Origin: Sphingobacteriales bacterium 44-15 | GTDB lineage: Bacteria > Bacteroidota > Bacteroidia > Chitinophagales > Chitinophagaceae | Reading direction: 5' to 3' | DNA: 64,000 nt | Assembly: GCA_001899685.1 (NCBI GenBank) | Contig: MKWG01000026.1 | Coordinates: forward strand, 17,573-81,572 | Shown here: one piece after another, positions 10,612-20,708 of the stretch | How positions within the stretch are numbered: position 1 is the first letter of the stretch | Layout of the letters: every line of letters begins with the position of its first letter | Made by a program: the position numbers and the translations under genes | The notes under the pieces: model-generated | Told to the model about the DNA's origin: nothing | The model's database searches: none | The model's input: the letters and a program-made list of their open reading frames with translations, nothing else

Positions 10612-11466
10612 TTATTTTAAGACAGCCTTAAGGCTCAGGTCTGCGCTTACCGCATGATGTATCACGGCGCCTATGCTTACATAGTCTACGCCTGTAGCAG
10701 CATAATCAGTAACATTCTCGAGGTTGATCCCGCCGCTGGCTTCCGTTTCAAACTTTTTGTCAATGATCTCCAATGCACTCCTGAGCTGTTCCGGGGTGAA
10801 ATTATCCAGCATGATACGGTCTATCTTCCCATACGCCACTACTTTTTTAACATCTTCAAACGTTCTTGTTTCTACTTCTATCTTCAGCCCCGGCTTTTTT
10901 TGCTGCACATACTGCCATGCCTTTTCTATTGCTTTCTCAATACCTCCGCAATAATCGATATGGTTATCTTTAAGCATGATCATATCATACAATCCCATGC
11001 GATGGTTGAGCCCACCGCCTATACGCACCGCTTCTTTTTCGAGCAAACGAAAATTAGGCGTCGTTTTTCTTGTATCTAAAAGCCTCGTGTGATATCCCTT
11101 CAGCTTGTCGGTATACTGCCTGGTAAGGGTGGCTATACCGCTCATACGCTGCATACAGTTCAATACAAGCCTTTCGCACTGGAGAATAGTATATACTCTG
11201 GCATCCACCTCAAAGGCGTCCTCTCCATACCTCATTATATCTCCGTCCTTTTTCATTGCATTGAATACGATGCCCGGCTCAATGTACCGGAATATTTTTT
11301 CAGCTACCTGCATGCCTGCAAGAATGCCATCCTGCTTGATTTTTAAAACAGCTTTGCCTTCGGCCTCAGGCTGAATAGCGCTTAATGTTGAGTGATCTCC
11401 TTCGCCAATATCTTCCTCCAGTGCATTTTTTATAAGCTTTTCAAGTGCTGATTCGTATGATCTCAT
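10612..11466 (-). CDS. nadC: Nicotinate-nucleotide pyrophosphorylase (carboxylating)
   Basis: The 284-residue enzyme converts quinolinate and PRPP into nicotinate mononucleotide, the third step of de novo NAD synthesis. Typical family features are GDHSTLSAI near the N-terminus, LDTRKTTPNFRLLEKEAVRIGGG for PRPP and quinolinate binding, NHRMGLYDMIMLKDNH, and ASGGINLENV with DYVSIGA near the end. No nadA or nadB is in the window. A -7 box sits so close to the ATG that the mRNA could be leaderless. Confidence 0.97.
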   Translation of the reverse strand: MRSYESALEKLIKNALEEDIGEGDHSTLSAIQPEAEGKAVLKIKQDGILAGMQVAEKIFRYIEPGIVFNAMKKDGDIMRYGEDAFEVDARVYTILQCERLVLNCMQRMSGIATLTRQYTDKLKGYHTRLLDTRKTTPNFRLLEKEAVRIGGGLNHRMGLYDMIMLKDNHIDYCGGIEKAIEKAWQYVQQKKPGLKIEVETRTFEDVKKVVAYGKIDRIMLDNFTPEQLRSALEIIDKKFETEASGGINLENVTDYAATGVDYVSIGAVIHHAVSADLSLKAVLK

Positions 11467-11507: not shown

Positions 11508-11629
11508 CCTGTTTATCGGGCGTATTTCAAATTTTCGCACCATTTCTCCCCTCTCTGCTGCGCGGAGAGGGGATTGCAGGGGTGAGGGAAATATGTGCCG
11601 CGAAAATTTGAAATGCACCCCTGTTTATC
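11508..11629. mobile_element. MITE-like element with terminal inverted repeats and a 10-bp flanking direct repeat
   Basis: Terminal repeats GGGCGTATTTCAAATTTTCGC (11518-11538) and GCGAAAATTTGAAATGCACCC (11600-11620) are near-perfect inverted copies. They are bordered by the direct repeat CCTGTTTATC at 11508-11517 and 11620-11629, as expected for a target duplication. The 60-base interior holds the CCCTCTC...GGAGAGGGG repeat (11548-11588) and no ORF. A second element with the same ends lies at 54668-54771. Confidence 0.55.
11548..11588. repeat. Hairpin repeat CCCCTCTC...GGAGAGGGG + GGGGTGAGG, copy 2
   Basis: The stem CCCCTCTC-TGCTGC-GCGGAGAGGGG is followed by ATTGCAGGGGTGAGGG. It is the counterpart of 698-728 and forms most of the interior of the MITE-like element. 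Confidence 0.55.
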
Positions 11630-11739
11630 TGACCCGTTATCATATATCAACACAGGAAAATATCAGATCGTGCAGTTAATCCGTTCATCGGTCATTTCTT
11701 ACAGAAAATCGAAGAAAACTATCTATGCAGCGAATAGAG

Positions 11740-11770
11740 TTTAAAAGGAAAAAGACATTGACCATCTTTG
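11740..11770 (+). promoter_or_regulatory. Promoter of putative small RNA copy 1
   Basis: A -7 box CATCTTTG (11763-11770) lies 20 bases after TTT (11740-11742). It fits TAnnTTTG except for the first base. The core ACCATCTTTGTATTGTCAAC that includes the box is identical in the second copy, including sequence past the expected start point. Confidence 0.45.
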
Positions 11771-11775
11771 TATTG

Positions 11776-12088
11776 TCAACGCTGATACAAAATCTAAACC
11801 CTTGAAAAGCTTAAATGAATAACCTTGAATAACGGCCCGTTTTTGATTCGTACCCGATACCATGAAAACTGATCTGAATCCCGAATCCCTGAACTACCCC
11901 TTTAGCATATCCAAATCCCGAGAAAGATTTATCAACCTCTAACCGATTCCAATACCTGAGAAAGCTACCGTTAAGACTATGATTCACCGATTTCCAGCCT
12001 GGATATGCAACCCGTAAACCCGGTAGATGCTTAGACAACCTCTGATGATAAAAATTTTAAGCCGAACAGTGATGTTTGGCTTTTTTTT
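11776..12088 (+). ncRNA. Putative small RNA copy 1 (orphan transcription unit)
   Basis: The unit runs from the promoter-like core at 11761-11781 to the terminator at 12060-12088. It is C- and A-rich and poor in G, and it contains only tiny ORFs. Collinear blocks shared with the copy at 19413-19802 on the other strand are the 5' core, GAATCCCTGAA (11883-11893), CCCCTTTAG (11897-11905), CCAAATCCC (11911-11919), AACCTCTGA (12037-12045) and an AGCCG terminator stem. A shared start, body and end with divergence between them argue for a conserved RNA rather than chance. I know no described family that it matches. A 75-residue ORF on the other strand (11811-12038) is not supported. Confidence 0.55.
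12060..12088 (+). terminator. Rho-independent terminator of putative small RNA copy 1
   Basis: The stem AGCCGAACA (12060-12068) pairs with TGTTTGGCT (12073-12081) around a GTGA loop, with one G-U pair. It is followed by eight further Ts. Confidence 0.8.
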
Positions 12089-12132: not shown

Positions 12133-13482
12133 CTATACCCTGCTTTCAAGCCCCAGGCGCCTGGAGATATCTGAAGTAAATATATTATCAGGATCGTATT
12201 TGCTTTTTATTGACAGCCAGTCCAAAAACTGAGGGTACATTTTTTGAAACATCTCTTTGTTGAGCATGGCATCTTTTCCCAGGTACAATCTTCCCCCTGC
12301 TTTCAAAACCACTTCATCTAATTTTTGGGTGAACGCTTTCAATTGCTTTGTTACGGGGAAATCAATAGCAAGCGTATAGCCTTTGAACGGGAATGATAAG
12401 AGCCCTTGTCCTTCCCCCATCTTTTTAAATACATTCAGGAAAGGAGTGCACCCGCTTGAGGCAATCATTTCAAGGATCAGCGCAAGCGTGGCTGCCCCGT
12501 CTTTTTCGGGGATAACGAATTGATACTGGATGAACCCTCTTCTGCCATATCCCCGGTTCCAGAGATTGATCATATCAAGCGGGAAAAAGAATTTTTCGTA
12601 ATGCACAAATTCCTTCGGCGAATTTTGAACAAAGGCGATCAGGCGGTTGAGTACCCGTACCGTAAAATTATTTAATGCAAAAGCCGGGAGGAAAAAAGGT
12701 ACTGTTAATTTAGATATGCTATGCACTTTCAGAGGGTCCTTTTTCAACGTCTCCGGCAATTCATCCAGCCTGGCTGCATCCCCCACCGTCAGTACCCCGC
12801 TTCCCAGTTTTTTACCTTTTGCAAGAGGGTCTATCCACGCTACTGAATAGTTATAACCCTGATATTTTTCAACTGCTTCAAGCATTTCCTCCAGGTTATT
12901 CACCTTTACAGACTTCTGCTTGAAGTAAGTGGTTTCAATTTTCCTTAGCCTGATCTTTGCCGTCAGGATCACGCCTAAGAGCCCAAGCCCGCCGAAGTTT
13001 GCCATAAACAGATCAGGATGCTCCGTCCTCGAAGCAGTTACAATGCTTCCGTCTGCCAGTAGTATAGTGAAAGAGACCACACAGTTAATAAAAGATCCGT
13101 CCGCGTGATGTGCTTTGCCATGTATATCGTTGGCAATAGCGCCCCCTATGGTCACGAATTTCGTTCCGGGGCATATCATGGGCAACCATCCCCTGGGAGC
13201 AAAATAAGTGATGATCTCTTCAAGGCTTGTGCCGGCTTCGCATGCCAGTATGCCCGTAGCTTCGTCCCATGCCAGGAAACAATGCATGGGGATACATATA
13301 CCAACATTCTTATTTTGATTGGTTGCCTGGTCGCCGTAGCTCCTGCCAAGGCCCCTGGCAATAACATCTTTTTGTCCGATCAGTGATCTCCATGCCTCGG
13401 TGTTCCCGGGAGAAAATACATACGATTCAGCACCCGGGAAATTTCCCCAGCCGGCAATGGTTTGTAGATGTTTCGCTGCCAT
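12133..13482 (-). CDS. FAD-dependent oxidase of the DprE1 / aldonolactone-oxidase family
   Basis: The 449-residue protein has an N-terminal FAD-binding domain with ARGLGRSYGDQA and TIGGAIANDIHGKAHH-GSF, the latter resembling the mycobacterial DprE1 flavin-binding region, plus a C-terminal cap domain and the final YDPDNIF motif of the family. DprE1 oxidises decaprenyl-phosphoryl ribose; sugar-lactone oxidases are relatives. The substrate here is open. A start at the TTG at 13500 is possible, but the ATG at 13482 is preferred because a promoter box (13498-13505) overlaps the longer version. No DprE2-type partner is adjacent. Confidence 0.85.
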   Translation of the reverse strand: MAAKHLQTIAGWGNFPGAESYVFSPGNTEAWRSLIGQKDVIARGLGRSYGDQATNQNKNVGICIPMHCFLAWDEATGILACEAGTSLEEIITYFAPRGWLPMICPGTKFVTIGGAIANDIHGKAHHADGSFINCVVSFTILLADGSIVTASRTEHPDLFMANFGGLGLLGVILTAKIRLRKIETTYFKQKSVKVNNLEEMLEAVEKYQGYNYSVAWIDPLAKGKKLGSGVLTVGDAARLDELPETLKKDPLKVHSISKLTVPFFLPAFALNNFTVRVLNRLIAFVQNSPKEFVHYEKFFFPLDMINLWNRGYGRRGFIQYQFVIPEKDGAATLALILEMIASSGCTPFLNVFKKMGEGQGLLSFPFKGYTLAIDFPVTKQLKAFTQKLDEVVLKAGGRLYLGKDAMLNKEMFQKMYPQFLDWLSIKSKYDPDNIFTSDISRRLGLESRV

Positions 13483-13497
13483 AATTATTAAACGCTG

Positions 13498-13526
13498 CAA
13501 AATTAAGTTTTAGTGGGGCAGGCAAC
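13498..13526 (-). promoter_or_regulatory. Promoter of the DprE1-like gene
   Basis: On the reverse strand GTTG (13523-13526) is followed after 17 bases by TAATTTTG (13498-13505), an exact TAnnTTTG match. The start point would lie about 9 bases before the ATG at 13482. Confidence 0.45.
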
Positions 13527-17766: not shown

Positions 17767-19269
<1,503 letters not shown>

Positions 19270-19304: not shown

Positions 19305-19335
19305 CAAAGGTAAGGTTCGGCAAATAATTGTCCAA
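19305..19335 (-). promoter_or_regulatory. atpD promoter (TTG-N20-TACCTTTG)
   Basis: On the reverse strand TTG (19333-19335) is followed after 20 bases by TACCTTTG (19305-19312), an exact -7 match. The predicted start is near 19298, giving a leader of about 30 bases. Confidence 0.6.
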
Positions 19336-19412: not shown

Positions 19413-19439
19413 AAAAAAAAGCCGCGCTTTTGCACGGCT
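19413..19439 (-). terminator. Rho-independent terminator of putative small RNA copy 2
   Basis: On the reverse strand AGCCGTGC pairs with GCGCGGCT around an AAAA loop, followed by Ts (the A run at 19413-19420 on the plus strand). The stem begins with the same AGCCG as in copy 1. Confidence 0.8.
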
Positions 19440-19802
19440 CAATCTTTTGAAATCTTGTCAGAGGTTAATGAACGGTTTGGTACGGTTTTCTACAAGGTAC
19501 TGACGGATTTCGGTTCTTAGGGTTGGTTGATTTCAAATATCGGATTGTGGGTTGATGGGTTTTACATAGCTTATTTTTTTATCAGTTTTTGCATTGACAT
19601 TGGATAACAGTGTGATTTTTCAGATGGTTTGGATCTGGCTTACTCAGGTTTGGATTCTTGGGGATTGGGGTTTTCTAAAGGGTCGGGGCATTTTCAGGGG
19701 ATTTGGGTTTTCTTCTCAGGGTTCGGGTGTTTTCTAAAGGGTGCCGGTTTTTCAGGGATTCAGAAATCAGGGATCTTGGGGTTTTCGTTGTGTCATCGTT
19801 GA
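19413..19802 (-). ncRNA. Putative small RNA copy 2 (orphan transcription unit)
   Basis: This unit is transcribed leftward in the 730-base gap between glpF and atpD and is about 390 nt long. From 5' to 3' it contains the core shared with copy 1 (19797-19817), GAATCCCTGAA (19761-19751), CCCTTTAG (19741-19734), CCAAATCCC (19706-19698) and AACCTCTGA (19466-19458), then the terminator. The body is a string of AACCC, AATCCC and CTGAA words with almost no G runs, and it has no convincing ORF. Compared with copy 1 it is about 80 nt longer, mostly in the AC-rich part. The function is unknown. Confidence 0.55.
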
Positions 19803-19807
19803 CAATA

Positions 19808-19815
19808 CAAAGATG
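19808..19815 (-). promoter_or_regulatory. Promoter -7 box of putative small RNA copy 2
   Basis: CATCTTTG on the reverse strand lies within the 21-base core that is identical to copy 1 at 11761-11781. The -33 position has only a weak GTTC. Confidence 0.4.
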
Positions 19816-19933
19816 GTAAGAACCCGGCGCTTACTGAACTTAATTCGATAGATAACCGGATAGTATCGTTTTTTGGTAAAAAAGCTTCGATTAGCTGAAA
19901 AAACAAACCCGGCCCGGGGATACCGGAAAATGC

Positions 19934-19994: not shown

Positions 19995-20708
19995 CTAAGA
20001 TTGCAGGACAAATTTAAACAGGAGCGCGGCCAAAACACCGCCCGTAATAGGAGCGATCACCGGAAGCCAGGCATAACCCCAGTTACTATCGCGCTTATTC
20101 TTTATAGGAAGTATGGCATGCATGATACGGGGGCCGAGATCCCGCGCAGGATTAATGGCATAGCCGGTAGGACCACCAAGGCTCAAACCTATGCCCAGCA
20201 CCAGCAAGGCTACAGGCAGTGCATCCAGGGCGCCTAATTTCATTTCAGGCTTTGAAAGCAATAATACGCCCAGCACCAGCACAAAAGTGCCGATCGTCTC
20301 GGTAATAAAATTATGAACAGGGCTTTCAATAGCAGCATCTGTACAAAAAGTCCCCAGCTTTAAATCAGGATCCTGTGTGGCATCAAAATGTTGTTTATAA
20401 GCAAGCCATACCAGGAATGCACCTATCATTGCACCAAGCATCTGCGCCAGGAGATAAGCAGGCACTTTGCTCCACTCAAAGCTGCCTTCTACTGCAAGCC
20501 CTACGGTAACGGCAGGGTTAAGATGAGCCCCGCTCACTGCAGCAGACGCATATACACCGGTGAACACGGCTACAGCCCAGCCAAAAGTAATGGCGATAAG
20601 CCCTCCCTTATTTCCCTTCGTTTTGTCGAGTATTACATTGGCAACAACGCCACAGCCTAAAGTGATCAATAATGCAGTGCCGGTGAGTTCTGCTACAAAT
20701 GGGCTCAT
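19995..20708 (-). CDS. glpF: MIP-family aquaglyceroporin (glycerol facilitator)
   Basis: The 237-residue inner-membrane channel has six hydrophobic segments and the two NPA half-helices: SGAHLNPAVTVG (59-70) and GYAINPARDLGPR (182-194). The Asp after NPAR is typical of glycerol-conducting members rather than strict water channels. It lets glycerol enter by diffusion. glpK and glpD are in the same window at 45972-49082 but far away, so the three do not form one operon. The gene is followed by a REP-like repeat. Confidence 0.92.
   Translation of the reverse strand: MSPFVAELTGTALLITLGCGVVANVILDKTKGNKGGLIAITFGWAVAVFTGVYASAAVSGAHLNPAVTVGLAVEGSFEWSKVPAYLLAQMLGAMIGAFLVWLAYKQHFDATQDPDLKLGTFCTDAAIESPVHNFITETIGTFVLVLGVLLLSKPEMKLGALDALPVALLVLGIGLSLGGPTGYAINPARDLGPRIMHAILPIKNKRDSNWGYAWLPVIAPITGGVLAALLFKFVLQS

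Follow-up and report, generated by a model that had tools for sequence, protein, structure and literature searches.

Two loci in a bacterial genome point to a multicopy Chitinophagaceae family of candidate RNA genes with a three-box promoter

The two copies and their surroundings

Two related loci, copy 1 and copy 2, lie between protein genes of the window, the whole 64,000-nucleotide stretch of DNA that was analyzed. Copy 1 is read on the plus strand between a quinolinate phosphoribosyltransferase gene (nadC; 10612-11466, minus) on its left and an FAD-dependent oxidase gene (12133-13500, minus) on its right, to which it is convergent. Between nadC and copy 1, at 11524-11614, an inverted repeat with 15-base arms (ATTTCAAATTTTCGC / GCGAAAATTTGAAAT) was seen by eye; it encloses a CTCCCC-GGGGAG-like stretch and looks like a small repetitive element. 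Copy 2 had been placed at 19413-19817 by the initial annotation and is indeed present there, on the minus strand and hence not in the same orientation as copy 1. It is flanked upstream by an aquaporin-type gene (19995-20708, minus) and downstream by atpD (17767-19266, minus), toward which it is directed on the same strand. The promoter boxes were defined from a gapless alignment (A2) of 12 members together with column counts, and the starts of both RNAs, which are of the long type termed class A below, were placed from the -7 box. The features are as follows.

11687..11690, plus: copy 1 box 1, the ATCG core of ATCGAA, its four columns invariant in 12/12 members
11705..11714, plus: copy 1 box 2, AAAATCGAAG, its TCG 21 bp from the TCG of box 1
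11731..11741, plus: copy 1 box 3, CGAATAGAGTT, overlapping the expected -33 region, its CG 21 bp from the CG of box 2
11763..11770, plus: copy 1 -7 element CATCTTTG, from which the conserved core runs on to 11781
11777..12088, plus: predicted class A RNA of copy 1, ~310 nt, G-poor
12060..12088, plus: intrinsic terminator of copy 1, AGCCGAACA-GTGA-TGTTTGGCT and a T run
19305..19335, minus: TTGGAC ... TACCTTTG, promoter-like, located past the terminator of copy 2 and before atpD
19413..19439, minus: intrinsic terminator of copy 2, with a stem that co-varies across eight atpD-linked orthologues
19413..19802, minus: predicted class A RNA of copy 2, ~390 nt
19808..19815, minus: copy 2 -7 element CATCTTTG, from direct reading and column counts
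19837..19847, minus: copy 2 box 3, CGAATTAAGTT, from alignment A2 and column counts
19864..19873, minus: copy 2 box 2, degenerate AAAAACGATA, from alignment A2 and column counts
19888..19891, minus: copy 2 box 1, from alignment A2 and column counts

Direct reading of 11740-12088 for copy 1 and of 19413-19895, on the minus strand, for copy 2 bore out the five collinear blocks described at the outset, namely, ACCATCTTTGTATTGTCAACG (the 21-base core), GAATCCCTGAA, CCTTTAG, CCAAATCCC, and AACCTCTGA, as well as the shared AGCCG at the start of the terminator stem. The genome-wide search for the core that had been suggested located the exact 21-mer at only two sites in the whole 6.0-Mb genome, copies 1 and 2; with up to three mismatches, one further site was found on another contig, 5' of a protein gene as judged by eye. 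With copy 1 as the DNA query, copy 2 was matched over 30 bases only (93%, E 2.3e-5), and the pair by itself is therefore thin evidence; it is the larger family, described below, that exceeds what chance would give.

Copy 1 was found by eye beside the same oxidase gene in a relative locus (L014), and in seven other fetched loci, chosen by eye, an orthologue of copy 2 precedes atpD and is co-directional with it, giving eight aligned sequences. This placement would fit copy 2 being a mere transcription-attenuation leader of atpD, with copy 1 a relocated relative, a reading that we regard as very improbable. The promoter-like element that follows the copy 2 terminator is separate and is kept in all eight aligned loci, suggesting more to copy 2 than an atpD leader, and copy 1 faces a convergent gene; the leader explanation for copy 2 was set aside on the first of these grounds. 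In the eight orthologues the terminator stem was altered on both sides, with 93.8% of cells pairing. Shuffles reached its covariation score in 0/500 cases, its number of pairs altered on both sides in 48/500, and its number of additional pair types in 334/500.

The shared promoter and its distribution

The shared promoter consists of three direct TCGAA-like boxes spaced 21 bp apart, plus CATCTTTG. In the 12-member alignment, the boxes stand at -77 (ATCG), -59 (AAAATCGAAG), and -33 (CGAAT) relative to the A of CATCTTTG, an element that resembles the Bacteroidota -7 consensus, given as TAnnTTTG (PMC9723704). With 21-bp phasing, all three boxes would face the same side of the DNA helix, an arrangement required for binding by regulator dimers in tandem.

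Both copies had been credited with a promoter and a terminator of their own, and this was upheld by the wider set: of 116 promoters, 103 were followed by an intrinsic terminator called by an automatic finder (101 of the calls distinct, the 116 including two sites present twice, in the overlapping loci L091 and L149), compared with 41/600 random window positions and 84/600 random starts outside ORFs of at least 150 codons. Thirteen promoters were without a call. By eye, a hairpin followed by T's beyond the limits of the finder was present at L009, L066, L095, L099 (at 953), and L102, a hairpin whose T run was weak at L083 and L098 (two matches each), and a hairpin without a T run at L147 (at 3480); the remainder were L079 (partial sequence), L042, and L076.

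A sequence-only promoter model, R1, gave 77 matches at E ≤ 0.0055 in 12 same-genus genomes, with 3 to 9 per genome and about six each; seven of the matches had gone into building the model, and tandem and orthologous RNAs within the counts are not independent. All but five of the 77 (weak or unfetched) were read downstream. This genome has six R1 matches, corresponding to three class A and three class B RNAs. With about six promoter matches in each same-genus genome, some of them in tandem, and two positions conserved by eye, the initial description of copy 1 as an orphan unit had to be dropped. When only the three-box pattern was searched for in the same 12 genomes, 64 sites were obtained versus 1 for the reversed control. 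All 64 lay within 60 nt of an R1 match, and 61 preceded a called terminator (lists matched by hand); in same-genus genomes, the three-box pattern therefore marks RNA-type genes almost exclusively.

Farther out, the 21-mer with one mismatch allowed was present in 4/294 family genomes, and the exact 21-mer was found at 20 loci in the public genome collection. Nine of these were followed by G-poor sequence with the same repeat language (L020, a partial locus, among them), in records named Bacteroidetes/Bacteroidota, Chitinophagaceae, Terrimonas sp. NS-102, and Agriterribacter humi; the remaining 11 did not resemble the copies, several being 5' of protein genes. Under stricter filters and samples than those of the same-genus count, R1 matched 21/195 family genomes at E ≤ 1e-4, and R2, a broadened model built from the 116 promoters, matched 54/294 family genomes and 24/101 genera at E ≤ 0.001, genomes used for building included. 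Some weak R2 matches in the family (L177, L178, L179, and L180) did not resemble class A once read, so that 54/294 counts promoter matches rather than proven RNAs. In the order sample, R1 matched 2/149 genomes, both from the same family, and none beyond it; R2 matched 8/296 genomes outside the family, all weakly (best E 3.9e-5), and reading six of these eight turned up no likely member.

Related cores were also observed outside the family. At L018, L184, and L185, ssb-type genes are preceded by a core resembling that of the family (CATCTTTGyA-TGTCAA or AATCTTTGCAGTGTCAA) and accompanied by repeats that are of the AAACGACTAC type or related to it, the SSB domain being confirmed for L184 and the other two assigned by eye; these cores are possibly a separate ssb control element in other Bacteroidota families. 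In a contig named Saprospiraceae, a gene for an RNA-binding protein of the TROVE/Ro60 type (L022:2163-3775) is preceded by the exact core CATCTTTGTATTGTCAACG, which may be chance. In L011 and L023 (contigs named Saprospiraceae and Phaeodactylibacter), the core is followed by 200 to 350 nt without an obvious gene and then by a hairpin and T run, as seen by eye; these are possibly further RNA genes without G-poor repeats.

Two classes of RNA

The sequences downstream of the promoters support a division into long, G-poor repeat RNAs (class A) and short, mostly UAGGAUA-bearing RNAs (class B). The non-B RNAs numbered 76, of which 44 were from the same genus and 32 from elsewhere; 67 were labeled class A and 9 were left unlabeled by the rule. 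Class A RNAs were about 165 to 470 nt long (67 RNAs so labeled) and are represented in this genome by both window copies and L059. Their bodies are A/C-rich and G-poor, with C exceeding G in 75/76 non-B RNAs; the base content of the body (G 0.15 and C 0.26 in copy 1, G 0.12 and C 0.29 in copy 2) agrees with the C/A-rich, G-poor character first noted.

The motif ATCCnnnGAAA occurred 56 times versus 1.6 expected in the 44 same-genus RNAs and, with equal strength, 47 times versus 1.7 expected in the 32 RNAs outside the genus set. Statistics on spacing, ORFs, and the 3' block were drawn from 36 class A RNAs, after exclusion of L009 and L014 (wrong end calls) and L042 (no call). Among these, the distance from ATCC to the next GAAA was 7 in 51 instances versus 2.4 expected; another peak lay at 12 to 13, and successive (T/A)GAAA showed a spacing peak at 18 to 19 nt. 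The repeat unit, AUCC-N3-GAAA, is degenerate and often has a further CC before it. Class A-type RNAs had medians of 7 ATCC and 7 GAAA; copy 1, with 4 of each, was below both medians, and copy 2 had 9 and 10, respectively. Near the 3' end, ACCTCTGA was present in 22/36 class A RNAs versus 0.4 expected. Relatives thus share promoter, terminator, and repeat unit, in keeping with the earlier proposal of a regulatory-type RNA family whose ends are kept while the repetitive middle varies. Across the window as a whole, ATCCnnnGAAA was not enriched (4 versus 3.15 expected, two of them inside the copies), and hence no putative mRNA targets of a class A-binding protein were seen there.

Compared with dinucleotide shuffles, the bodies were on average less folded, with fold z values of +0.5 (se 0.14, n = 44) and +1.1 (se 0.21, n = 32), positive in 31/44 and 25/32, respectively; a minority folds as well as or better than the shuffles. 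For the whole RNA, z was -0.09 for copy 1 and, with its terminator, -2.24 for copy 2, so neither counts as strongly folded. Without the terminator, the values were +1.18 and -0.25, so that the copy 2 body is not less folded than its shuffles. C-rich, G-poor, unstructured bodies of this kind may resemble rut sites, and the class A body might be a Rho-type element, either a Rho decoy or a means of Rho-controlled elongation before the terminator. We consider this improbable, however, as rut sites need no unit with a preferred internal spacing and a co-varying intrinsic terminator would be redundant.

The longest ORF averaged 23.5 codons in the 36 class A RNAs versus 36.1 in shuffles, which upholds the claim that the region holds no credible ORF and led to rejection of a protein gene. 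Descent of the copies from a decayed mobile element or protein gene, the outcome named at first as a refutation, is scarcely credible. Tandem members do occur, and two copies in one genome (L045 and L054) are identical over the stretch read, as remnants of a mobile element could be. Against this, neighborhoods are kept, the terminator co-varies, the bodies have diverged yet promoter and terminator are kept, and the short ORFs do not fit a protein gene.

Class B RNAs were 122 to 173 nt long (25 RNAs) and are represented in this genome by L060 and a tandem pair in L061. Genes of this class were observed in rows of two or three in L061, L065, L067, L071, and L073, each with a three-box promoter. 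When RNAs were counted by length, which replaced a circular, motif-based B label, UAGGAUA was present in 20/30 RNAs of ≤180 nt (0.275 in shuffles) and in 0/71 longer RNAs; it was likewise absent from the 76 non-B RNAs, a comparison in which the B label drew on the motif itself, and from L060 of this genome. Its mean unpaired probability exceeded 0.65 in 14/20 cases. The motif is close to GUAGGAUA, reported as bound by the Bacteroides RRM protein RbpB of B. thetaiotaomicron and quoted from earlier work in a 2025 paper (PMC12119571). RRM_1 genes were found in 12/12 same-genus genomes, with 3 to 5 each. The link to RRM proteins is limited to class B, because class A is without UAGGAUA.

The same paper describes Hfq, ProQ, and CsrA as generally missing in Bacteroides (PMC12119571). 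Hfq was found in 0/12 same-genus genomes at E ≤ 0.01 (5/14 control genomes positive), so that the family does not fit the Hfq-dependent sRNAs. CsrA above the cut-off was likewise found in 0/12, with two weak sub-threshold matches (E 0.009) and with 3/14 control genomes positive, E. coli included; a strict CsrA-type sponge was therefore rejected.

Duplex energies between class A and class B were compared with those of shuffled class A for 33 pairs, which are not independent, from five genomes. The z value was below 0 in 24/33, with a mean of about -0.43 and a range of -3.24 to +1.87. This slight lean was not enough to retain the idea that class A sequesters class B by antisense pairing, and two same-genome combinations went the opposite way (z +1.45 and +1.87). 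The same figures bear on a broader reading, possible if rather doubtful, in which class A RNAs would be base-pairing sRNAs with redundant seeds (AUCC..., ACCUCUGA) that, much as FopS does, target mRNAs or further RNAs, perhaps assisted by RRM proteins. Such a role would suit strands that are open, C-rich, and G-poor and that carry short repeated motifs and a conserved 3' block, as would the slightly better pairing with class B of the same genome; FopS is multicopy, has a single-stranded 5' stretch, and binds near start codons (PMC11697453). However, no pairing targets for class A were found within the window, the lean toward class B is small, and degenerate units would, as an argument only, suit protein contact better than a seed.

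Proposed mechanism and comparison with known RNAs

On the evidence of sequence, copies 1 and 2 are members of a multicopy Chitinophagaceae RNA-gene family of noncoding type, with a probability of about 0.9. The status of the family as RNA genes is strongly supported, and it may belong to an RNA-based control system. Class A is best read as a multivalent ligand, because its body is open and carries several degenerate, near-regular sites with otherwise little conservation. A single activator, occupying all three boxes from one side of the DNA, would switch the whole RNA set. Class A would then act as an open, multivalent ligand in which each AUCC-N3-GAAA is a docking site for a single-strand RNA-binding protein, and expression of the set would titrate that protein away from mRNAs; class B RNAs would be ligands of an RRM-1 protein through UAGGAUA. 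That class A serves as a protein sponge is put forward tentatively. The combination of an RNA family, one activator, class A multivalent ligands, and class B RRM ligands is, as a whole, the best explanation of the comparative data, and we give it about an even chance. It is a good deal more speculative, and unlikely as it stands, that these elements form a Csr-like global circuit without CsrA, in which one activator would control sponges (AUCC-N3-GAAA) and UAGGAUA ligands that titrate RRM-1 or other RNA-binding proteins and so reset translation.

For bacteria without Hfq, ProQ, and CsrA, in which sRNA action is little understood, a family recognizable by its diagnostic promoter, its repeat unit, and a class with an RRM-type motif offers a practical starting point, as one experiment each could be directed at the activator, the protein bound, and the targets. 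The R1 and R2 promoter models make the family countable, whereas open RNAs as such would be hard to find by RNA-structure search.

The initial annotation knew of no family with these features, and at the gathering threshold Rfam 15 had no match in the window, sub-threshold matches being far below the cut-off; in 11 relative loci it returned one tRNA only, outside the RNA. 6S RNA was rejected, as the window and these loci gave no gathering-level match to the Rfam 6S covariance models, and no tRNA or tmRNA was present in the window. No published description of a three-box RNA family was found in literature searches that were partly aimed at other subjects.

CsrB and RsmXYZ are sets of several co-regulated sponge RNAs in which the bodies vary and a short repeated motif and an upstream control element are kept. 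Class A is alike in its variable bodies, kept short repeat, and kept upstream element; it differs in that the repeat of those RNAs is GGA, whereas class A is G-poor with the repeat AUCC-N3-GAAA and CsrA is not over the cut-off in any of the 12 genomes. The cia-dependent sRNAs of streptococci are paralogues united by a direct-repeat promoter. That promoter type is shared, but here three boxes stand at 21 bp, the phylum is another one, and the bodies bear repeats.

FopS and GibS, paralogous Bacteroides sRNAs, are described as single-stranded over a stretch that precedes an intrinsic terminator and as linked to an RRM-1 protein (PMC11697453). The likeness lies in the single-stranded stretch with its terminator and in being multicopy sRNAs of Bacteroidota, along with a putative RRM-1 link, for which the present family shows UAGGAUA in short RNAs and RRM genes in the genomes; the combination of single-stranded body and intrinsic terminator was found for class A on average, though not in every member. 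Class A differs in its length, its internal repeat unit, and its three-box promoter. The comparison with FopS, which is defined by a 5' R1 seed element, covers body, terminator, and promoter. Rfp18 of Flavobacterium is, like the present family, a conserved Bacteroidota sRNA, occurring outside one species, but is described as likely strongly folded, and the accessible part of that paper does not mention a three-box promoter (PMC9723704). The family is judged to be real and is apparently unnamed. Its broad kind, paralogous sRNAs, is known, and its open repeat design and three-box promoter are unusual.
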